A stretch of 16,064 nt of DNA, from NCBI GenBank assembly GCA_023132135.1, contig JAGLYR010000087.1:1-16064 (forward strand), read 5' to 3'. This document shows, piece after piece, positions 3,080 to 15,760 of this stretch (the first letter of the stretch is position 1; every line of letters starts with the position of its first letter). Source of the stretch: Candidatus Eiseniibacteriota bacterium. GTDB lineage: Bacteria > Arandabacterota > Arandabacteria > JAGLYR01. Below the pieces are notes generated by a model. That model saw only the letters and a list, made by a program, of their open reading frames with translations, had not been told where the DNA came from and did no database searches. The position numbers were made by a program, and so were the translations under genes.

Positions 3080-5221
3080 TTACTCCGGAGCTTCGATGCG
3101 GATTCTGGCATCGACCACTCGCGAGTACGACGGGTCATGGCATGCCATGAAAGGATTGATATCCAGCTCGGCGATCTCCTGGAAATCCATCACCATCTGG
3201 GACACTCGGTGGAGTACTTCGACAACCAGCGGAAGATCCACGCCTTGTTCGCCCCGAACCCCCTTGAGCAGCGGAAGTCCCTTGACCGACTCCACCATCT
3301 CCCAGGCGTCGACATCCGTGACAGGAACAGGTCGGAAGACAACGTCCTTGAAAACCTCGACGTAACGCCCCCCCAACCCGAACATGAGAAGGGGGCCAAA
3401 GAGCGGATCCGAGCTCATTCCAATGATGACCTCCTGCCCGCGAGTGGTCATCTCCTGGACAACAAAGCCCTCCAGCTCCGACAGCAGGCCGTGGGACTCG
3501 AGATTCTCTCCGATCTGCTTCACGGCCGCCGACACGTCATCTTCGCTTCGAAGATCCAGCGCCACGGCTCCCACATCCGACTTGTGCACGATGCCACGGC
3601 CGGCGGCCTTCACCGCGACGGGGAACCCGAGACTGCGGGCCAGTGCGCCTGTGTCCCCGGCTTCACGGGCCTGCCCCATGCGACACGTTGGAATCCCGTA
3701 GGCCTTCAGCAGATCGAACACATCGCCCATCATCAGGAAACCTCCGCCGTCCTTCTTCGCTGCCGCCATGATCTCGGCCGACCTTTCCCGATCCACATCG
3801 AAAACCGGGACCACTCCTTCCGGGCGCCTTCGGAGCTGGCTGTACTTGCAGAGGTCGAAGCACGTACGGGCCGCAGGTTCCGGGAAGAAGAACAGCGGCG
3901 GATGATCCGGCAACTTCTCCTGCAGCTGTTCGTAGAATTCCTCCAGAGCCATGAAGACTCCAACTACGGGTTTCTTGTGACGGCGCGTCACTTCCGTGAC
4001 CGCTGTTGCCACATCCGTGGGATTGATCATTGTGGGCGGCACGAAAATGACCATCACAATATCCACTTCCGGATCCTGAAGAACCAGCTCCAGGCAGACA
4101 CGGTAGGTCTGGTGGTTCGCACTGGCGATCATGTCCACCGGATTGAGAACGCTTGCTTCCGCTGGAAGGATTTTCGACAGCTGCTTGCTGGTCTCATCTG
4201 TCAGCCGGGCCATTTCCAGCCCATACTCCTCGCACGCATCCGTCGCAAGAATAGCCGGCCCCCCCGCATTGGTCAGAATGCAGATCCGATTCCCGTCCGG
4301 CAGCGGACAGCGTGTGAATGCCTGGATAGTGTTGAACATCTCCTCGATCGAGCGGGCTCGCAGGACGCCACATTGATTCAGCAGAGCATCGATGGCAACG
4401 TCCCTTCCTGCAAGGGCCCCCGTGTGCGATGAGGCTGCTCTGGCGCCGGCCTCGGACCTGCCGGACTTGACCACTACCAGGGGTTTCTTGCGAGCAATCC
4501 TTCGAGCCAACACCGTGAATACGCGGGGATCCCCAAAGGACTCCAGATACAGGGCAATCACCCGAGTTCCGGGGTCATCTTCCCAGTAGGCCAGGAGATC
4601 GTTGCCCGCAATGTCCGCCTTGTTCCCCACCGAGGCGAAGAAGGAAAACCCTATGTTCATCTCCCGAGCCACGTTCAGAATCGCCACTCCCAGAGCACCG
4701 GACTGGGACATGAAGGCCACATCACCCGGTGGCGGATGCGTTGGTGAGAAAGTGGCATGGAGCGCGATTTCGGGATCGGCATTGAACACGCCCATGCAGT
4801 TGGGGCCGATCATGGACATGCCGTAACTCCGAACCTGCTCCAGGAGCCTCTGTTCCCTCTCAATCCCTTCGCCTCCGACCTCCTTGAAACCGGCACTGAT
4901 GACCACCAATCCCCCGACCCCCTTCTCCCCACACTCATCCACAACTCCGGGGACCTTATCCTTGGGGACCACGATTATGGCCAGATCCACTGGATCCGGG
5001 ACGTCCAGCACCGACGGATAGCATTTGAAGGAGTGAATGGCCTCGGCGAAGGGGTTAATCGGAAACAGCTTCCCGCTGAAACCGAAGGTGACGAGATTGT
5101 CCAGAATCTGGTACCCAATCGAGCCTGTACCTCTCGATGCGCCGATCACAGCCACCGAGGATGGCTTGAAAATCACGTCGAGCCGTTTGGATCCGTTCCC
5201 TTCACCATTCTGGCTACTCAT
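3080..5221 (-). CDS. NDP(ADP)-forming acyl-CoA synthetase, fused alpha-beta
   Basis: The likely reaction is acyl-CoA + ADP + phosphate to acid + CoA + ATP, conserving the thioester energy at the end of a fermentation; the reverse, acid-activating direction is also possible. The 713-residue protein begins with a Rossmann CoA-binding domain (VAVIGASRGTGSIG, residues 23-36). Succinyl-CoA-ligase-like domains follow, with SQSGALG at 172-178 and SSHTGALAG around 264-272, whose His266 matches the phosphohistidine of the acetate-CoA ligase (ADP-forming) alpha subunit. An ATP-grasp beta part covers roughly 500-710 and includes VHKSDVGAV near 543, containing the second phosphotransfer histidine. Alpha and beta are separate proteins in some archaea and fused here. 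The ATG at 5221 has a GAGGAG site 5 nt upstream and lies 16 bp after the preceding stop, so it is probably co-transcribed. Substrate (acetyl, propionyl or branched acyl) cannot be read from sequence; a protein-acetyltransferase role is unlikely because no GNAT domain is present. Confidence 0.92.
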   Translation of the reverse strand: MSSQNGEGNGSKRLDVIFKPSSVAVIGASRGTGSIGYQILDNLVTFGFSGKLFPINPFAEAIHSFKCYPSVLDVPDPVDLAIIVVPKDKVPGVVDECGEKGVGGLVVISAGFKEVGGEGIEREQRLLEQVRSYGMSMIGPNCMGVFNADPEIALHATFSPTHPPPGDVAFMSQSGALGVAILNVAREMNIGFSFFASVGNKADIAGNDLLAYWEDDPGTRVIALYLESFGDPRVFTVLARRIARKKPLVVVKSGRSEAGARAASSHTGALAGRDVAIDALLNQCGVLRARSIEEMFNTIQAFTRCPLPDGNRICILTNAGGPAILATDACEEYGLEMARLTDETSKQLSKILPAEASVLNPVDMIASANHQTYRVCLELVLQDPEVDIVMVIFVPPTMINPTDVATAVTEVTRRHKKPVVGVFMALEEFYEQLQEKLPDHPPLFFFPEPAARTCFDLCKYSQLRRRPEGVVPVFDVDRERSAEIMAAAKKDGGGFLMMGDVFDLLKAYGIPTCRMGQAREAGDTGALARSLGFPVAVKAAGRGIVHKSDVGAVALDLRSEDDVSAAVKQIGENLESHGLLSELEGFVVQEMTTRGQEVIIGMSSDPLFGPLLMFGLGGRYVEVFKDVVFRPVPVTDVDAWEMVESVKGLPLLKGVRGEQGVDLPLVVEVLHRVSQMVMDFQEIAELDINPFMACHDPSYSRVVDARIRIEAPE

Positions 5222-5237: not shown

Positions 5238-6356
5238 CTAGCCTGACTCGATGTTGCTTCTGGGTACCAGAGCCCGGCTGCCGTCATCGAAGGTCAGCTC
5301 TACAACCCGGACCCTCGCCTCCGTTTCGATCTGAACCGGGCTGCGGGGAAGCGCTGTCACCGTCCCCACCCGTCCGAGGAAAGGTACCCTGGCACCGCGG
5401 ACACGGGTCCCGATCTTCAGGGAGATACCCATCGCACGGACGGATTCCCCGCCCTCTCCCGGCCGCTCGGACGAGATCACAACCTCCGGCCGAATCACAC
5501 CCGCCCGGATCTGGGTTTTCCCGTTGAGGGACGCCCTGCAACCATTCTTCGACTCCAGGAGCCTGAACGTCCTCTCGGCCATCGGCACATCTCCGAAGCC
5601 CTCGGTGACGACAAGGGTCGTGGTCACAGCCTCTCCACCGGTAATGGCGCTCCCCAGGTCATACCCCAGAAGATCCCGAAGGTCGGAATCGGTGATGCTC
5701 CCCACGACAAGCCCCCGCACTCCCAGATACGCAGCGCGCTCAATGCAACCCGGCATAAGACCGCGACCAGCGACGATCACCTGTCCCCGGTGCGATTCGT
5801 CCAGTCTGCCCGGATCCAGCCGTTCATCGGGACCCGGCCCCACGATGGCCAGATTGCCCCACACCTCTCCCCCAACTCCGAAAATCCCCTGAACCAATGT
5901 TGCCCGCGCCTCTATCTCCGCTCCCTCGCCGGGAAACACATCGACGATCTCTCCGTCCAGGTACGCCGCCACTTCCACCTGGATGGGTACTCCCCGGATC
6001 ACAACCTGCCCGGTCACCGTGGAGATCGATTCCACATGCCCCGAGACCGGTGAGGTGCATTTGGACCTGAACAGGCCCCAAAAACCGGACGACCGGCCCA
6101 GAATCTCTCCCCCCGTGACAGCATCGCCTTCCCTCTTCAGGAGTGCCCGCTCGATGGCCTCCGGCGCGATCCCCAAGAGAGCCGCTACATTTACGACCCG
6201 GGCAACACCCGGCAGCTCCGCCCGCGCAAGAACCGTGTCTCTCTCCACGCTCTGGTTCTTCCTGACCAGCACGGTCCCCTTTACGGGTAGCCGCCGTTGG
6301 CGGCGGAGCCGCACCCCCTCGGCAACTGTCAGGCCCTGCGTGTAAGTCTCAGCCAT
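5238..6356 (-). CDS. Uncharacterised MutL-adjacent protein with barrel-sandwich and KOW-like segments
   Basis: I cannot name this 372-residue protein. No signal peptide or membrane segment is visible, so it is probably cytosolic. The N-terminal third contains two segments like halves of a lipoyl/barrel-sandwich fold: LPVKGTVLVRKNQSV (23-37) and SPVSGHVESISTVTGQVVI (102-120), the second with no lipoyl lysine. Then come GIFGVGGEVWG (157-167), an alpha/beta stretch GLVVGSITDSDL (215-226), EGFGDVPM (252-259), NGKTQIRAGVIRPEVVI (278-294) and a C-terminal KOW/SH3-like barrel (315-370). The glycine-rich motifs look like conserved family positions rather than random sequence. I chose the ATG at 6356, which overlaps the mutL stop by 8 bp and has AGGA just upstream; a frame extension to 6434 would run deep into mutL. 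Translational coupling to mutL suggests a partner or adaptor in the same process. RnfC-like or biotin-carrier-like roles were considered but lack cofactor motifs. Confidence 0.85.
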   Translation of the reverse strand: MAETYTQGLTVAEGVRLRRQRRLPVKGTVLVRKNQSVERDTVLARAELPGVARVVNVAALLGIAPEAIERALLKREGDAVTGGEILGRSSGFWGLFRSKCTSPVSGHVESISTVTGQVVIRGVPIQVEVAAYLDGEIVDVFPGEGAEIEARATLVQGIFGVGGEVWGNLAIVGPGPDERLDPGRLDESHRGQVIVAGRGLMPGCIERAAYLGVRGLVVGSITDSDLRDLLGYDLGSAITGGEAVTTTLVVTEGFGDVPMAERTFRLLESKNGCRASLNGKTQIRAGVIRPEVVISSERPGEGGESVRAMGISLKIGTRVRGARVPFLGRVGTVTALPRSPVQIETEARVRVVELTFDDGSRALVPRSNIESG

Positions 6357-8194: not shown

Positions 8195-8449
8195 CTAGTC
8201 TTGCTTTCTCTCCATTTCTTCGATCCGCTGTATCAACTTCTCCCAGTTCTCCCGCGAGGCCATTCGCTCGACAAACCGATCGTAGCGCTCCGGATCCACC
8301 AGAAGATGCGCAACCGGGCCCCAGAAAAGGAACATCTGGGACCCGACGAACGCAAGGGGCTTGCAGATCTCCAGCAGGAACACCGCCGGGACGGACAATC
8401 CCCACCGGACCACTCTCCTGGCCAGAAGGTTGTCTAGGTCTTCTTCCAT
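8195..8449 (-). CDS. Small membrane-associated protein, unknown function
   Basis: I do not recognise a named family. The 84-residue product has a short charged N-terminus ([14 protein letters not shown]), then one long hydrophobic stretch (residues 16-51) including [20 protein letters not shown]. That stretch could be one membrane helix or a hairpin broken at the central KP. A charged amphipathic C-terminal helix (52-84, with [14 protein letters not shown]) could be a coiled coil or interaction helix. It is likely real because it overlaps the gcvPB end by 16 bp, sits 37 bp before mutL, and has the composition of a tail-anchored or single-pass protein. The ATG at 8449 is the only sensible start; its ribosome-binding site is weak. 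It may recruit an operon product to the membrane, but this is speculation. Confidence 0.75.
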
Positions 8450-9882
8450 CGAAGATCCAGCTGGCGCGCTGCCTTCGCTTCGTCGACCCTGCGGATGGGT
8501 GTGCGAGTCGGCGCAGCCTTCACGGCATCGGGCTCGGTATCAACCTCTTCGGCAATCTTCTCCATCGTCTCAATGAACGCGTCCAGGGTCTCCTTCGACT
8601 CAGTCTCGGTCGGCTCGATCATGAGCGCCTCTTCCACGACCAGGGGGAAGTACATCGTCGGCGCGTGAAACCCGTAGTCGAGAAGCCGCTTGGCAATATC
8701 AAGAGCGCGCACGCCCTTGGCCTTCTGCCTGCGCGCCGAGAGAACGAATTCATGCTGACACACTCTCTGATAGGGAAGATCGTAGGTCCCTTCCAGGGCC
8801 CGCATCGCGTAGTTGGCGTTGAGAATGGCTGCGGCACTGACCTCCCGGACTCCCTCCGGCCCCATCCCCCTCAGGTAGGCGTATGCCTTGACCATCACGA
8901 GGAAGTTCCCATACCAGGTGTGTAGACGGCCGACCGACTTGGGGAAATCCTCCTCCAACCGGTATCCGTCGTCACCTTTGACAATCCGGGGGACGGGCAG
9001 GAAAGGTTCCAGATCCTCGACAACGGCGACGGGACCGGATCCCGGTCCTCCACCCCCGTGGGGTGTGGAGAAGGTCTTGTGCAGGTTGAGATGCATCGCG
9101 TCCATTCCCAGATCTCCGGGCCGGACGATGCCCATGAGCGCGTTCATGTTGGCGCCGTCCATGTAGACCTTCCCGCCGACATCGTGGACCATCTCGGCAA
9201 CACGCACGATCTGCCGCTCGAACAGCCCCAACGTGTTTGGATTGGTTACCATCAGCGCCGCGACGTCTTCATCCAGAACCTTCGCCAGACCATCCAGATC
9301 AATCTCTCCCCCGGAAGTCGACGGAACCGTTTGCGGCTCGAAGCCGGACAGAACCACGGAAGCAGGGTTTGTCCCGTGGGCCGTGTCGGGCACGAGCACC
9401 TTTGTTGGCTGCCTCCCCCGGCTCTCGTGAAATGCCCGGATCACCAGCAGCCCCAGCAGTTCACCCTGCGCTCCTGCCGCCGGTTGCATGCAGACGGCCT
9501 TCATGCCCGTTATCTCGCACAGAATCCTCTCAAGATCGTAGATCAGTCCCAGGCTGCCCTGGCACAGGGACTCCGGCACCAGAGGGTGCAGCGACGCGAA
9601 CCCCGGAAGGGATGCTGCAACTTCATTCACCTTGGGATTGTACTTCATCGTGCAGGAACCCAACGGATAGAATCCCTTGTCCACGTGATGATTCAGAGTC
9701 GAGAGGCGCACAAAGTGCCGGACCAGAGCCTGCTCGCTGACCTCGGGCAGAGCAGCCGCCTCCTTGCGTCGGCAGGACCCGGGAATCAGATTGTCCAGAG
9801 GTTCCCCCGGCACATCCAGATCCGGAACCAGCCCACCGCCACGCCCTGGTGACGAAAGATCAAAGATCGTTGGTTCAACCAT
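8434..9882 (-). CDS. gcvPB: Glycine dehydrogenase (decarboxylating) subunit 2
   Basis: This is the PLP-bearing half of the two-subunit P-protein, which decarboxylates glycine and passes aminomethyl to the lipoyl arm of GcvH. The 482-residue product carries the PLP-lysine motif [18 protein letters not shown]; Lys269 is the expected Schiff-base lysine. Other family motifs are [13 protein letters not shown] near 72-84, GAQGE near 137-141, [10 protein letters not shown] near 166-175 and MDGANMNA near 241-248. I chose the ATG at 9882, preceded by GAGGAAGG and 8 bp beyond the gcvPA stop; a TTG at 9894 would give four more residues and a 4-bp overlap. The C-terminal tail beyond the catalytic core is basic and overlaps the next gene by 16 bp. 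Length and gene order (PA then PB) match split P-proteins of many anaerobes and thermophiles. Identification is secure. Confidence 0.97.
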
Positions 9883-9890
9883 ATCCTTCC

Positions 9891-11252
9891 TCAACCGGTT
9901 GAGCTCTCCAGCTGACGAGCTGCACTGTCCATGATTTCAACCCAGTGGTCGATTTCCTCGCGGGTTCGCTTCTCGGTCACCGCCACGAGCAGGCAATCCT
10001 CGAGTTCCGGGTAGCCGTCCCCAAGGGGCACGCCACCCAGGATGTCCTTCTCCCGAAGGTGCTTCAGGATCCGCCCCACGTTGCCGGAACAGCGCACAAC
10101 GAATTCCTTGAAGAACGGCTCCGGGAATCGCAAAGAGAAACCGGGGATCTCGCAGATTCTCCCGGCGGCATAGTGACTCTTCTGGACGCAGAGTTCCCCG
10201 ACCTGCCGGAACCCATCCTTGCCAAGTGCCGAGAGGTACACCGTAGCGGCCAAGGCCAGTAGAGCCTGGTTCGTGCAGATGTTGGAGGTGGCCTTCTCCC
10301 GGCGGATGTGCTGCTCCCTGGTCTGCAGCGTCATGACATAGCACGTATTCCCATCCGTGTCCTCCGTGCGGCCGACGACCCTTCCGGGCATTTGCCGGAG
10401 AAAGCGGTCCCTGCAGGCGAAGAACCCGAGCAGGGGCCCCCCGAAGGCCATCGGACTCCCAAGGCTCTGGCCCTCTCCCACGGCAATATCCGCCCCCAGT
10501 TCACCCGGAGAGGCCAGGATCGAAAGGGAAATCGGATCGCACGAGACCAGGGCGAGCATGCCGGCTTCGTGGGCGCGCTCGGCCAGGGCCTCCACAGGTT
10601 CCACGACCCCGAAGAAGTTGGGGTTCTGGACAATCATGCACGCGGCGTCCGGTGTGCCCGCGACGGCGTCCAAATCGGTCCGCCCTCCGCTGATCGGTAG
10701 CGTCACCACTTCCATCCGGCCACCGCGGGCGTATGACCGGAGGACCGCCATGTGGCTGGGGTGAATCGCTTCCGAAACGAGGACCCGTTTCCTTCGCGTG
10801 ACCCTTACTGCCGTCAGCGCTGCCTCTGCAACAGCCGAGGCTCCGTCGTACATGGAGGCATTGGCGACGTCCATCCCTGTGAGCTCGCAAATGAGGGACT
10901 GGAACTCGTAGGTACTCTGGAGGGTTCCCTGGCTCACCTCTGCCTGGTACGGGGTGTAGGCCGTTGCGAACTCCGGCCGCGCCGCCACCCACGGAACCAC
11001 CGCAGGGATGAAGTGATCGTAGACTCCCCCGCCAAGGAAAGAGAGTATTTTCCCGGGATCCACATTGTCGTTGGCCGCTGCCGTCAGAAGCTCCACGACC
11101 TCGAGCTCCGAAAGCCTGGCTGGAATACCCAGTGGCCGGGTCAGGACCTTCTCACGGGGAAGCTCTTTCCACAGATCCTCCACCCGCGAAACCCTCAATC
11201 GGTCCAGCATTTCAGCACGATCGTTTTCCGAATGTTGAACGTAGCGGCTCAT
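9891..11252 (-). CDS. gcvPA: Glycine dehydrogenase (decarboxylating) subunit 1
   Basis: This is the non-PLP-lysine half of the split P-protein, which forms a heterotetramer with GcvPB in the cytosol. The 453-residue product has the family features [20 protein letters not shown] (around 98-117, near the active-site entrance), [11 protein letters not shown] (around 135-145), an aminotransferase-like fold, MVQNPNFFG-type sequence (IVQNPNFFG), and [20 protein letters not shown] near the C-terminal third. It lacks the HKTF lysine motif, as expected for subunit 1. The ATG at 11252 overlaps the gcvH stop by 4 bp (ATGA), typical of translational coupling, and the stop lies 8 bp before the preferred gcvPB start. 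No frameshift or missing segment is visible. Identification is secure. Confidence 0.97.
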
Positions 11253-11638
11253 GGCGATTCCGTCTCAACAAGTTTCTCGTAGTCTTCCGCCGACATCAGT
11301 TTTTCCAGTTCCTCCGGCTTGCCTGTCTCAACGACGATCATCCAGCCTTCGCCGTACGGCGAGCTGTTGACCAGCTCCGGGCTGTCGGTGATCGCAGAGT
11401 TGATCTCCTTGACCACGCCGGATACAGGTGCGAACAGATCGCTCACCGCCTTGACCGCCTCTATGGACCCGAAGGGCTCCGCCGCAGTCACCTCGGCGCC
11501 CACCTCAGGCAGTTCCACATACACGATGTCTCCCAGCTGACCCTGGGCGTAGTCCGTGATTCCAATCCTGGCCATCCGCCCGTCTACCGCTACCCACTCG
11601 TGCTCCTTGGTGTACTCGAGCTCCTTCGGTACGTTCAT
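11249..11638 (-). CDS. gcvH: Glycine cleavage system H protein
   Basis: This is the lipoyl carrier of the glycine cleavage system, shuttling aminomethyl between P and T proteins and electrons to lipoamide dehydrogenase. The 129-residue product has the start KEHEWVAVDG (11-20), GITDYAQGQLGDIVYVELP (26-44) and the lipoylation motif GSIEAVKAVSD, with Lys63 as the attachment site; a C-terminal GEGWMIVV strand follows near 100. Length is normal for the family (about 125-130). The ATG at 11638 has GGAGGG 4-5 nt upstream. The gene follows gcvT after 100 bp, a gap occupied by a dispersed repeat, and overlaps gcvPA by 4 bp. Lipoylation enzymes (LipA/LipB or LplA) and the L-protein are not in this window. 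Identification is secure. Confidence 0.98.
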   Translation of the reverse strand: MNVPKELEYTKEHEWVAVDGRMARIGITDYAQGQLGDIVYVELPEVGAEVTAAEPFGSIEAVKAVSDLFAPVSGVVKEINSAITDSPELVNSSPYGEGWMIVVETGKPEELEKLMSAEDYEKLVETESP

Positions 11639-11673
11639 GTTCCCTCCAGAAAATGCCTGTCCCTGAAACCCTT

Positions 11674-11720
11674 CCCTCTTCGTGTCCTTCGTGCCCTTTG
11701 TGGTTCAGGCTTTTGCGCGC
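11674..11720 (-). repeat. Dispersed 47-bp repeat, copy 1 (gcvT-gcvH gap)
   Basis: On the minus strand this reads as CAC GAA GGG CAC GAA GGA-type units and matches the copy at 15828-15874 in 45 of 47 positions, both with a flanking GCGCGC and G-rich stretch. It begins 18 bp after the gcvT stop. Translated, it gives the LNHEGHEGHEE-like low-complexity peptide that I recognise as a frequent spurious translation in draft genomes of uncultured bacteria. Confidence 0.85.
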
Positions 11721-11738
11721 CCTCGCCCTCTCGCAGCT

Positions 11739-12854
11739 CTACTTCCGCGAGCCTTGCTTGTAGAAAGGTCCACGGACGATGGTCGCCCCGATTCCGGATT
11801 TTCCCTCGGCCTGAATCATAAGTTCCTGCCCCACGGAAGAGGCTCCCTTGTCCACGTATCCCATCCCGATTCCTTTTCCCGTGGACGGCCCGAAGGAACC
11901 ACTGGTCACCCGCCCCACTTCGCTGCCGTTGACGAGGAGGAGATGTCCGGGTCTGGGAATCCCCCGCCCTTCCACCTCGAATCCCACCAGCTTGCGCTTC
12001 AGCCCTTCGGCCTTCTGCTGTGCCAGCGCACCTTTGCCGATGAAGTCGTCCTTGTCAAGTTTGACAGCCCAACCAAGACTTGCCTCGAGAGGCGTCGTCG
12101 TCTTGTCGATGTCATTCCCGTAGAGGCAGTACCGGACCTCGAGCCTGAGCGTATCCCGGGCTCCCAGCCCGACCGGCTCGATGTCCAGGGGCCTTCCCGC
12201 CTCCATGAGAGCATCCCAGACAGCGGGACCGTCATCCCAATCGAGGTAGACTTCGAACCCATCCTCCCCCGTATACCCGGTTCGCGAAACCAGGCACTTG
12301 ACACCGGCCACCTCCGCACGGCACCACCTGTAGAATCCAAGATCGCGGAAGGGCCCGGTCCCTACTTCCGTAATCACATCTTCTGCTTTCGGACCCTGAA
12401 GAGCAACGAGCGTCGTATTCCTGCTATTGTTAACCAGTTCCGCATCCGGCGCCATATGCTCCCGAATCCACTCGAAATCCTTCGCCTCGTTGGCCGCGTT
12501 GACCACAAGAAGGAAACCGTCCTCCAGACGATAGACCAGCAGGTCATCTACGATCCCGCCGTCCTCGTAGCACATGGCGGAGTAGAGAACGTCGCCCACC
12601 TTCAGATTGCCGGCGTCGTTGGTTATCCACCGGTTCACCACCTTCGCCGCACCCCGTCCCCTGACTTCGAACTCTCCCATGTGGGAGACATCAAACAGCC
12701 CGACAGTCGACCTCACCCGCCGGTGCTCTTCCATGATACTCCGGTACTGAACGGGCATCCACCATCCGGCGAAGGGAACCATTCGGCCGCCCGCTTCCAC
12801 GTGTTTGTCGTAGAGAGCAGTCTTGCGGGTTTTTCCTTCCGCTGTTTCAGTCAA
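11739..12854 (-). CDS. gcvT: Aminomethyltransferase (glycine cleavage T protein)
   Basis: This enzyme releases ammonia from the aminomethyl-lipoyl group on GcvH and forms 5,10-methylene-tetrahydrofolate. The 371-residue product starts TETAEGKTRKTALYDKHVEAG and carries MVPFAGWWMPVQY, GLFDVSHMGEFEV, DGGIVDDLLVYR (with the conserved Asp of the active site) and the C-terminal barrel motif GRVTSGSFGPSTGKGIGMGYV (positions near 325-345, glycine-rich). I assign a TTG start at 12854, because it gives the family's N-terminus and has GGAAGGGG 7 nt upstream, while no in-frame ATG lies between uvrA and the conserved core. A longer in-frame reading to 13007 overlaps uvrA and translates the intergenic repeat (LNHEEHE), so it is rejected. 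No glycine riboswitch fits in the 59-bp gap after uvrA. First gene of the inferred operon; identification is secure, the start reasonably so. Confidence 0.95.
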   Translation of the reverse strand: MTETAEGKTRKTALYDKHVEAGGRMVPFAGWWMPVQYRSIMEEHRRVRSTVGLFDVSHMGEFEVRGRGAAKVVNRWITNDAGNLKVGDVLYSAMCYEDGGIVDDLLVYRLEDGFLLVVNAANEAKDFEWIREHMAPDAELVNNSRNTTLVALQGPKAEDVITEVGTGPFRDLGFYRWCRAEVAGVKCLVSRTGYTGEDGFEVYLDWDDGPAVWDALMEAGRPLDIEPVGLGARDTLRLEVRYCLYGNDIDKTTTPLEASLGWAVKLDKDDFIGKGALAQQKAEGLKRKLVGFEVEGRGIPRPGHLLLVNGSEVGRVTSGSFGPSTGKGIGMGYVDKGASSVGQELMIQAEGKSGIGATIVRGPFYKQGSRK

Positions 12855-12896
12855 ACCGTAGCCCCTTCCCGCCGCAGATCTCGCAGATGGTCCTCG

Positions 12897-12922
12897 TTCG
12901 TGCTCTTCGTGGTTCAATCTTT
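12897..12922 (-). repeat. Dispersed repeat, copy 2 (shortened, overlapping the uvrA stop)
   Basis: This 26-bp core matches the 15828-15874 copy with two mismatches. It overlaps the last codons of uvrA: the uvrA TGA (12916-12914) is the TGA inside the repeat's TTGAACCACGAAG-like core. The remainder fills the 59-bp gap before gcvT. Confidence 0.8.
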
Positions 12923-15760
12923 CTTCAATACCTCCGCCAGCACCCGTCCCGTGTGGGACTCCCCGACACGCGAAACCTCTTCGGGCGTGCCTGCGGCCAC
13001 GACCCATCCCCCGTCGTCACCCCCCTCGGGCCCAAGGTCAATAATGTAGTCCGCCGTCTTGATCACGTCAAGGTTGTGTTCAATCACGACCACCGTATTG
13101 CCCATCTCCACGAGACCATCCAGGACAGAGAGCAGCAGCCTCGTGTCTTCGAAATGAAGACCCGTCGTTGGCTCATCCAGGATGTACAGGGTTCGCCCCG
13201 TGGAACGTTTTGAAAGCTCGGCGGCGAGTTTGACCCGCTGGGCCTCTCCTCCGGAGAGGGTCGTCGCTGACTGTCCCAAGCGGAGATATCCGAGACCCAC
13301 TCTCTCGAGAGTCTCGAGCTTCGGCCGCACCGTCGGGATGTTCCTGAGAAACGCCAAGGCCTCGCTGATGGTCATCTCCAGCACATCCGCGATGTTCTTT
13401 CCCTTGAAGGCCACCTCCAGAGTCTCCCGATTGTACCGTCGGCCTTTGCATACGTCGCACCTCACATACACGTCCGGCAGGAAATGCATTTCGATGCGCA
13501 TCACGCCATCGCCACCACAGATCTCACACCGGCCGCCCTTCACATTAAAGCTGAACCGGCCCCGTTTGTACCCACGGATCCTGGCCTCGGGAAGCGTTGA
13601 GTAGAGGTCCCGAATCGCGGTAAAGGCGCCAGTGTAGGTCGCCGCGTTCGAGCGTGGTGTACGGCCGATGGGAGACTGGTTAATCTCGATCACCTTGTCG
13701 ATGTGGGAGAGCCCCTCGATGCCGCCATGCTTGCCGGGGACTTCCCTGGAGCGGTAGAACAACCTCGACAGAGCTCGATACAGGATATCGTGGACCAGCG
13801 TGCTCTTGCCGGATCCGGACACCCCCGTCACGCAGATGAAGGTCCCCATGGGAAAACCCACGTCGATGGCTTTCAGGTTGTGTTCCTCCGCTGCCTTCAC
13901 CGTCAGCTGCTTGCCGTTTCCCTTCCGCCGGGCCGAACGGATTGGAATCTGCTTCCGCCCGCTCAGGTACGCGCCCGTCAGGGACTCGGGGACAGCTTCC
14001 AGATCCGCCGGAGTTCCACTGGCCACCACGCGCCCCCCCATCCGCCCCGCCCCAGGCCCCAGATCCAGGACCCAATCGGACTCCAGAATCGTATCCCGAT
14101 CATGCTCCACCACGAGCACCGAGTTTCCCTGATCGCGAAGTCGCTTCAGCGTGCGCAGCAACCGGTGGTTGTCGCGGTGGTGAAGCCCGATACTGGGCTC
14201 ATCCAGGATGTACAGAACTCCCACCAGCGACGCGCCGATCTGCGTGGCGAGACGGATCCTCTGTGCCTCGCCGCCCGAGAGCGTGCCGGCCTGTCGATCC
14301 AGGGTCAGGTACTCCAGACCCACGTCGCTGAGGAACGCCAGCCGGTCGTTGATTTCCTTCAGGATCTGGGAGGCAATCTTCCGGTCCCGGGACGGGAGAT
14401 CCAGATCATCGAAAAACCCACGGCAGCCTTTCACTGTCCGCTGGGTCAGCTCGCTGATGTTGAGATTGCCCAACCGGACGGCGAGGCTCTCGGGGCGGAG
14501 TCTGGCGCCGCCACATCCCGGACACGGCATTTCATTCATGAAACCGTGTATCCACTGCCGCACGGCCTCGGACTGAGTCTCGCAGTACCGCCGCTGCAGC
14601 CATGGGACCATTCCCTCCCATCGCAGGGACCTCTTCCGCCGCCGCTTGACCAGTTGAGCTTGCTGTTTCTCGTCCGGCCCGTAGAGCACCAGGTTCCTAG
14701 CCTTTGCCGGGAGGTTTCGGAAGGGCCGGTCGGGATCGATACTGAAGTCCTGCTTCAGGGCTTTCAGCTTCCTGCCGGCCCAGTCACCGAGGCCCGATTT
14801 GCCCAGGGGTATCGCGCCTTCCCGCAGCGACAGCGCCGGATCCGTGACAACCAGGCTCGGGTCGATCTCGAAACAGTCCCCCAGACCCTTGCACTCGGGG
14901 CATGCCCCGTACGGACTGTTGAAAGAAAAGGCCCGGGGCGAGAGTTCTTCCACACTGATTCCGCAATCCGCACAGGCCATCGTCTGGCTGAAGATGACAT
15001 CCCGCTCACCGCCCACTTCGACGATGACAATCCCGCCGCCCACACCGATGGCCGTTTCCATCGAATCACTCAGGCGTTTCTCGATTCCGGGGCCCACCAC
15101 AAGCCGATCCACCACAACTTCGATGTCGTGCTTCCTGGTTTTCTTCAGCCCGATGGGGAAATCCAGATCGTGGGTGTCTCCATCAATCCTCACGCGGACG
15201 TATCCATCCCGGGATGCCCGCTCCAGCACGGCCCTGTGCTCCCCCTTTCGCCCGCGGACCAGGGGAGCCAGAACCCGGATGCGGGTACCCTTCGGAAGAC
15301 CCAGCACGTGCGACACCATTTGCCCCACACTCTGGCGCGAGATCGGCTTGCCGCATCGGTAGCAATGAGGGATGCCGACACGGGCGAACAACAGCCGGAG
15401 GTAATCGTATATCTCCGTGACTGTCCCAACAGTGGACCGGGGGTTTCCGCTGGCTGTGCGCTGCTCGATGGAGATGGCAGGCGAGAGCCCCTCGATGTGG
15501 TCCACATCGGGCTTTTCCATCTGACCCAGGAACTGACGAGCGTATGCAGAGAGGGATTCCACGTAGCGGCGCTGTCCCTCGGCGTACAACGTGTCGAAAG
15601 CGAGGGACGACTTGCCCGACCCGCTAAGACCCGTGATCACGACCAGCTTGTCGCGAGGGATCTCCACCGTTATGGACTTGAGGTTGTGCACCCGGGCGCC
15701 CTCGATCCGTATCACGTTTCCAGTGGCCGAGGCCGTCCCAACACCCGATTTCCGATTCAC
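12914..15760 (-). CDS. uvrA: Excinuclease ABC subunit A (UvrA)
   Basis: UvrA is the damage-sensing ABC ATPase of nucleotide excision repair; its dimer loads UvrB at lesions. The 948-residue product has two ABC ATPase modules. The first Walker A is GLSGSGKS (44-51) with signature [12 protein letters not shown] near 493; the second is GVSGSGKS near 648 with signature [12 protein letters not shown] near 836, each followed by a LDEP Walker B. The C-terminal zinc finger CEIC-X19-CDVC lies near 743-768, with further CxxC pairs near 133 and 265. Length is normal. The start shown is a GTG at 15760 lying in a 14-bp-period repeat; a second GTG at 15715 gives [15 protein letters not shown], which fits the usual UvrA N-terminus better, so the first 15 residues are doubtful. 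The 3' end overlaps a dispersed repeat. The gene precedes gcvT by 59 bp and could be co-transcribed, but it has no functional link to glycine cleavage. Confidence 0.97.

Follow-up and report, generated by a model that had tools for sequence, protein, structure and literature searches.

The 372-residue protein encoded next to mutL in the window, the 16,064-nucleotide stretch of DNA analyzed here, probably serves not a B12 enzyme but a widespread membrane machine, as its cytosolic adaptor. The protein is designated X, and its conserved neighbors sm, TM217, P284 and TM249. The partnership of X with a MutL-type ATPase is well supported, and from the gene set, its co-occurrence across genomes, gene fusions, domain folds, ATPase motifs and copy numbers, all of which are read from sequence, we infer a mechanism in which X is the adaptor of a MutL ATPase module shared between membrane cassettes as their energizer (probability about 0.4). 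Conservation of the seven-gene set extends across about a dozen phyla, with Nitrospira and the anammox Brocadiales among the carriers, and X is present in roughly a quarter of the genomes sampled. These findings extend the reach of the MutL ATPase family beyond B12 mutases and provide a concrete set of partners that makes the role of long MutL ATPases directly testable.

The X gene and its family

X is a real gene. It starts with ATG, comprises 372 codons and a stop codon and lies on the minus strand (Table 1), the plus strand of the same interval being non-coding. Its start codon (6356-6354) lies within the end of mutL, the stop codon of which occupies 6351-6349, and the 8-bp overlap between both genes described in an earlier note on this DNA is thereby confirmed. 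A longer open reading frame of 398 residues, starting at an upstream GTG, was rejected as the X gene because homologues start at the ATG (MAxxYTPGL).

The window copy of X matches no Pfam model at a threshold of 0.001 and no NCBIfam model at all. The earlier note could not match its motifs to any enzyme it could name. A scan of the species-genome collection with this single protein yielded no match, and an alignment-based scan identified 559 candidate stretches encoding an X relative. The best 80 named loci among these 559 include some labeled as Zixibacteria, Eisenbacteria, Fermentibacteria, Latescibacteria, Poribacteria, Stahlbacteria/WOR-3 and Hydrothermae, as well as Nitrospirota, Planctomycetota (Brocadiales), Armatimonadetes, CSSED10-310, Bdellovibrionales and Bacillota. 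One locus (L069) lies on a contig titled Candidatus Puniceispirillum, a label that probably arose from an error in binning or naming. X was found in 19 of 60 genomes in a first sample and in 101 of 386 in a larger one, the 101 positive genomes covering 63 families as counted from their family labels. Within an alignment of 68 sequences, homologues share 42-50% identity with the window copy, and 49 positions are invariant.

Table 1. Features of the X locus in the window (positions are those of the whole stretch).
Feature	Position	Strand	Evidence
X, 372-aa three-domain protein of an unnamed family	5238-6356	minus	ORF, homologues, alignment, model
X residues 9-130, barrel-sandwich hybrid domain of RnfC/NqrA N-terminal type	5967-6332	minus	profile and fold
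X residues 131-300, swivelling beta/beta/alpha domain with three glycine-rich motifs	5457-5966	minus	fold and invariant residues
X residues 312-372, KOW/SH3-like domain	5241-5423	minus	fold
Long-type MutL ASKHA ATPase, 608 aa	6349-8175	minus	PF13941, 1.3e-119, residues 10-481
sm, small protein of the conserved cluster, motif PAxxFLExxKPLxFxGSQ	8195-8449	minus	homologues at 54 loci

Domain architecture of X

Profile searches and structure prediction assigned X as a whole to no characterized family and yielded an AlphaFold2 model with three domains (pLDDT 86.1, pTM 0.70; input, the 68-sequence alignment). The earlier note had described a barrel-sandwich-like N-terminus and a KOW/SH3-like C-terminus, both of which stand, and had missed the swivelling beta/beta/alpha domain that lies between them (residues 153-296). 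At the sequence level, the barrel-sandwich domain is detected as RnfC_N in 18 of the 68 relatives (best E 4.9e-8), the window copy falling below the threshold, and one relative matches TIGR01945 (rnfC) at 3.4e-5. At the level of fold, this domain superposes on NqrA (Z 7.8, 2.1 Å over 64 residues, 30% identity) and the C-terminal domain on the KOW domains of NusG/Spt5 (Z about 8, rmsd 1-2 Å). The comparison method often gives Z 7 to 8 for unrelated pairs, and the barrel-sandwich assignment therefore rests mainly on the sequence matches. Matches obtained by Foldseek with the whole X model were dominated by the KOW domain.

The fold of the middle domain resembles those of UPF0107 AF_0055 (Z 9.9, 2.5 Å, 111 residues), the swivelling domain of PEP-utilizing enzymes (Z 9.7) and RraA (1j3l; Z 9.1, 132 residues, 4.3 Å). 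At the sequence level, a PDB profile search gave RraA an E value of only 0.035, and the domain has no Pfam match. X 153-296 shares a swivelling fold with RraA, the UPF0107/aconitase-X small subunit and PEP-utilizing enzymes (Z 8-10), but identity to these proteins is only 15-17% and the GIFGxGGE, TEGFG and TQIRAGxIRPE motifs are specific to X. The three glycine-rich motifs that the earlier note had singled out as apparently conserved (GIFGVGGE, EGFGDVPM and TQIRAGVIRPE) occur exactly in X, and no other stretches of the family are as well conserved. The residues invariant in all 68 homologues include Q156, G157, I158, G160, E164 and G167 in and next to the first motif, T251, E252, G253, F254 and M259 in and next to the second, and T281, Q282, I283, R284, A285, G286, R289, P290 and E291 in the third.

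Co-occurrence and gene order

The genomic distribution of X indicates that it is very probably a dedicated partner of a MutL-type ATPase, as the earlier note had suspected. MutL is present in 100 of the 101 X genomes in the 386-genome sample, and in 75 of these 101 it lies within 2.5 kb of X on the same strand, so that a survey of gene neighbors finds X mostly linked to MutL, with about a quarter of X genes not adjoining it; 14 further genes fuse domains of the two proteins. MutL occurs without X in 13 genomes of the same sample, which include carriers of the short GlmL/Or-4 type. The association extends to DUF6754, which is encoded in 101 of 101 genomes with X versus 5 of 285 without it, and in 19 of 19 versus 0 of 16 in an earlier genome set. 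The Fisher p-values for the 386-genome sample (1e-76 and 1e-87) are descriptive only, since the sampled genomes are related and independence is overstated.

Clustering of the open reading frames around X revealed a common order, sm-MutL-X-DUF6754-TM217-P284-TM249, in which sm usually lies directly upstream of MutL. At the 41 loci where the sequence extends 6 kb or more in both directions from X, MutL is found nearby in 29 cases, sm in 28 and the complete set of four membrane genes in 26. This order is maintained in Zixibacteria, Eisenbacteria, Fermentibacteria, Latescibacteria, Nitrospirota, Brocadiales and others. The cluster is rearranged and still linked at three loci (L036, L074 and L080), and at another (L085) the membrane genes are found on the opposite strand at a distance of 3 kb. 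Profile-profile comparison of all the cluster proteins detected no homology between them.

The genome from which the window derives carries a complete four-gene membrane cassette together on another contig (C302, locus L122), and the membrane partners were consequently invisible to the earlier note. The position that the cassette holds in related genomes is occupied in the window by a gene for an ADP-forming acyl-CoA synthetase (3080-5221), which lies 16 bp downstream of X and may be co-transcribed with it. Upstream of sm lie genes that, from their translations, we take to be gcvPB, gcvPA, gcvH, gcvT and uvrA. Glycine cleavage genes (8434-13007) thus adjoin the MutL-X cluster in the window, as they do at L021, L064, L104 and L113, and downstream of TM249 there is often a gene for a lipoate-protein ligase; the proximity of glycine cleavage and ligase genes is likely lineage-linked.

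A few genomes depart from this pattern. One (G014) encodes X and three copies of DUF6754 without MutL, and the six neighbors of its X gene include no evident ATPase that could replace it; two others (G094 and G280) encode a long MutL without X. These genomes are mostly metagenome bins, in which such single absences may be gaps. A one-contig genome (G065) carries DUF6754 without X or MutL and is a real exception unless both proteins have diverged too far to be detected.

The membrane cassette

Judged by patterns of hydropathy and charge, TM217 and TM249 would span the membrane several times, and P284 would have a soluble domain, seemingly outside, between two transmembrane helices. For DUF6754 (PF20539) the same patterns predict an N-terminal signal or transmembrane segment, an outer part that differs in size between proteins, a transmembrane helix, a cytosolic domain and a further transmembrane helix. 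A model of DUF6754 (pLDDT 89.3) shows a Rossmann-like domain between two transmembrane helices, and its fold matches, which include Sir2, SIS and RCK (Z 9-12), are generic. Long DUF6754 proteins of about 905-970 residues carry N-terminal extensions at L029 (6627-9434), L033, L079, L101, L108 and L109; the extension at L029 appears FN3-like by eye.

We know of no function for DUF6754. The open-access literature, to which our search was confined, yielded no paper naming DUF6754 or PF13941, and the titles and abstracts of open-access work on MutL, GlmL and ASKHA proteins mention nothing of the X cluster. Among the profile libraries used, none names X or any of its membrane partners except DUF6754. 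PADLOC returned no match for X, MutL or the four partners, and an anti-phage defense system was rejected on this basis.

The cassette is frequently present in several copies. Counted by eye, 53 of the 101 X genomes have at least two DUF6754 matches, and complete extra cassettes occur. Genomes often carry 2-6 membrane cassettes versus a usually single stand-alone X/MutL pair; X itself is single in nearly all genomes, one (G319) having two stand-alone copies. Genes next to the extra cassettes are of mixed metabolic kinds, among them M28 peptidase, transketolase, debranching enzyme and sulfatase, and reveal no pattern and no substrate. In a Zixibacteria bin, three tandem DUF6754-TM217 units follow a single MutL-X pair (L059, 11500-21000), and P284 and TM249 complete two of these units. 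The cassette of rumen bacterium RGIG7520 contains four P284-like genes (L089, 13058-18099), which suggests an expansion of the presumed outer domain. At eight Nitrospirota loci (L057, L068, L073, L081, L082, L086, L093 and L116) a further gene follows the cassette, and its product in L116 matches AmmeMemoRadiSam system protein B (6e-38).

A proposed role for the MutL-X module

The nucleotide-binding motifs of the window MutL are intact, with DCGSTTTK (residue 14), DIGGATTD (287) and GSGG (421) representing the phosphate and adenosine motifs. Their invariance across the aligned MutLs makes it likely that the X-linked MutL is an ATPase. We tentatively propose that X, the long MutL, sm, DUF6754, TM217, P284 and TM249 constitute a previously undescribed trans-membrane machine, in which one ASKHA (actin-fold) ATPase and its adaptor would power several interchangeable complexes. 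X would be the cytosolic adaptor of this distinct, long-type ATPase, and the two proteins would bind each other and dock as a module on an inner-membrane complex formed by DUF6754, TM217, P284 and TM249, with the membrane-anchored, Rossmann-like cytosolic domain of DUF6754 as the putative docking site. The KOW and barrel-sandwich domains of X could provide docking surfaces, and its swivelling domain could transmit to the membrane proteins the nucleotide-driven movements by which MutL opens and closes, so that the module would energize or remodel the complex in an ATP-driven manner. The single X/MutL pair in genomes with often 2-6 cassettes suggests that one pair probably serves several of them in turn.

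A possible parallel is found in group II ECF transporters, where a shared energizing module serves several membrane partners. The logic of one cytosolic ATPase module with several membrane partners may be alike, but the MutL ATPase belongs to the ASKHA rather than the ABC type, each cassette is a full four-gene set, and sharing is deduced here from copy number only.

The nearest rival to the energizer reading, which we consider somewhat unlikely even though the present data fit both, is that MutL-X is a chaperone for assembly or quality control of the membrane complex and does not power transport. Like the reactivase of diol dehydratase, it would use ATP to release or exchange a subunit or cofactor of its client complex. 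MutL belongs to the ASKHA superfamily of reactivases and activators, and a single pair attending to several cassettes would fit such a chaperone equally well. The large subunit of the reactivase also contains a swivelling beta/beta/alpha domain, as X does; this fold is common, however, and no cofactor enzyme needing repair was recognized among the membrane proteins.

MutL-X fusions and a possible regulatory use

In 14 genes (L038, L039 and L157-L168) the MutL body is fused to the barrel-sandwich and swivelling domains of X, most of them with two barrel-sandwich copies and all without the KOW domain; those at L038 and L039 run off the ends of their contigs. Fusion of the two bodies provides strong indirect evidence that MutL and X touch each other. 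The fused genes lie away from membrane cassettes, among mixed neighbors from which no function could be read, which suggests that the fused module has another, possibly regulatory, use and that MutL-X is also able to function in the absence of the membrane complex. Two fusions from the same family (L158, 8878-11925, and L159, 2-3106) have an Xre-type helix-turn-helix preceding the MutL-BSH-BSH-swivel arrangement, identified by a Pfam match in L159 and by a near-identical start in L158, and these could possibly be ATPase-regulated repressors.

The helix-turn-helix in these paralogues, together with the resemblance of DUF6754 to ligand-binding Rossmann domains such as SIS and RCK, would be consistent with MutL-X being a sensory or regulatory module that reports an internal signal to the membrane complex or, when fused, to DNA. 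We regard this as improbable, given that the helix-turn-helix is confined to two related fusions of one family, that stand-alone X has no effector domain, and that the fold matches of DUF6754 are generic.

Comparison with RnfC and NqrA

X and RnfC/NqrA have N-terminal barrel-sandwich domains that are related by profile and fold, and the relationship of the X domain to RnfC_N/NQRA_N and Biotin_lipoyl, along with lplA and gcvH genes nearby in several lineages, might point to a role in electron transfer, as in RnfC/NqrA, or as a biotinyl/lipoyl-type carrier. Such a role is very improbable. No cysteine or lysine is invariant among the 68 X sequences, which therefore offer neither 4Fe-4S ligands nor a swinging-arm lysine, and none of the membrane proteins has a match to an Rnf or Nqr subunit. 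Unlike RnfC and NqrA, X lacks a whole-protein match (22.6 bits versus a cut-off of 245.95) and follows its barrel-sandwich domain with swivelling and then KOW domains. An Rnf/Nqr redox subunit was rejected on the missing cysteine, and a biotinyl/lipoyl carrier because no lysine occurs at any invariant or nearly invariant position.

Two clades of MutL and their association with B12 mutases

The earlier note had suggested that X might hold a B12 enzyme or its cofactor as an adaptor of MutL, a notion in keeping with the annotation of named MutL-family members as accessory to B12-dependent glutamate and ornithine mutases, and with the location of these mutase genes next to short MutLs. The genomic data leave this the least probable of the readings considered, and the role was rejected on neighborhood and co-occurrence. 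Of 60 X genomes tested, 1 scored above the cut-off for glutamate mutase E and 4 for the OAM/lysine-5,6-aminomutase (KamD) domain, with neither matched in the window's own genome (G000); these two were the B12 enzymes that the search covered. No B12 enzyme was recognized in the conserved neighborhood of X, where the real conserved partners are the four membrane proteins, DUF6754 among them.

The distribution of the mutases follows a division within MutL. The best-scoring models for the window MutL are those of B12-mutase accessory proteins, yet it falls far below the GlmL and Or-4 equivalog cut-offs (220.7 versus 475 and 212.9 versus 600 bits), and X-linked MutLs are about 605 residues long versus 440-505 for the GlmL/Or-4 type. 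A quick maximum-likelihood tree, with some long branches and a careful search still unfinished, places 38 long MutLs on one side of a branch with support of 98 and groups 12 short MutLs at 100; the window MutL falls in the X-linked long clade and the fused MutL-X genes lie beside the long MutLs. Glutamate mutase E is present in 4 of 9 tested genomes that have MutL without X, next to the short MutL. The sole tested X genome with both mutases (G126) encodes separate short MutLs adjoining them, and another X genome (G263) likewise has separate short MutLs. The mutases thus sit by short, X-less MutLs, which assigns the B12 role to the short clade and leaves nothing tying X to it. The X-linked MutL shares its ASKHA family and nucleotide motifs with GlmL and Or-4 MutL (PF13941, NF040745, NF040744), but it is longer, forms its own clade and is accompanied by X and the membrane cassette, usually without a B12 mutase.
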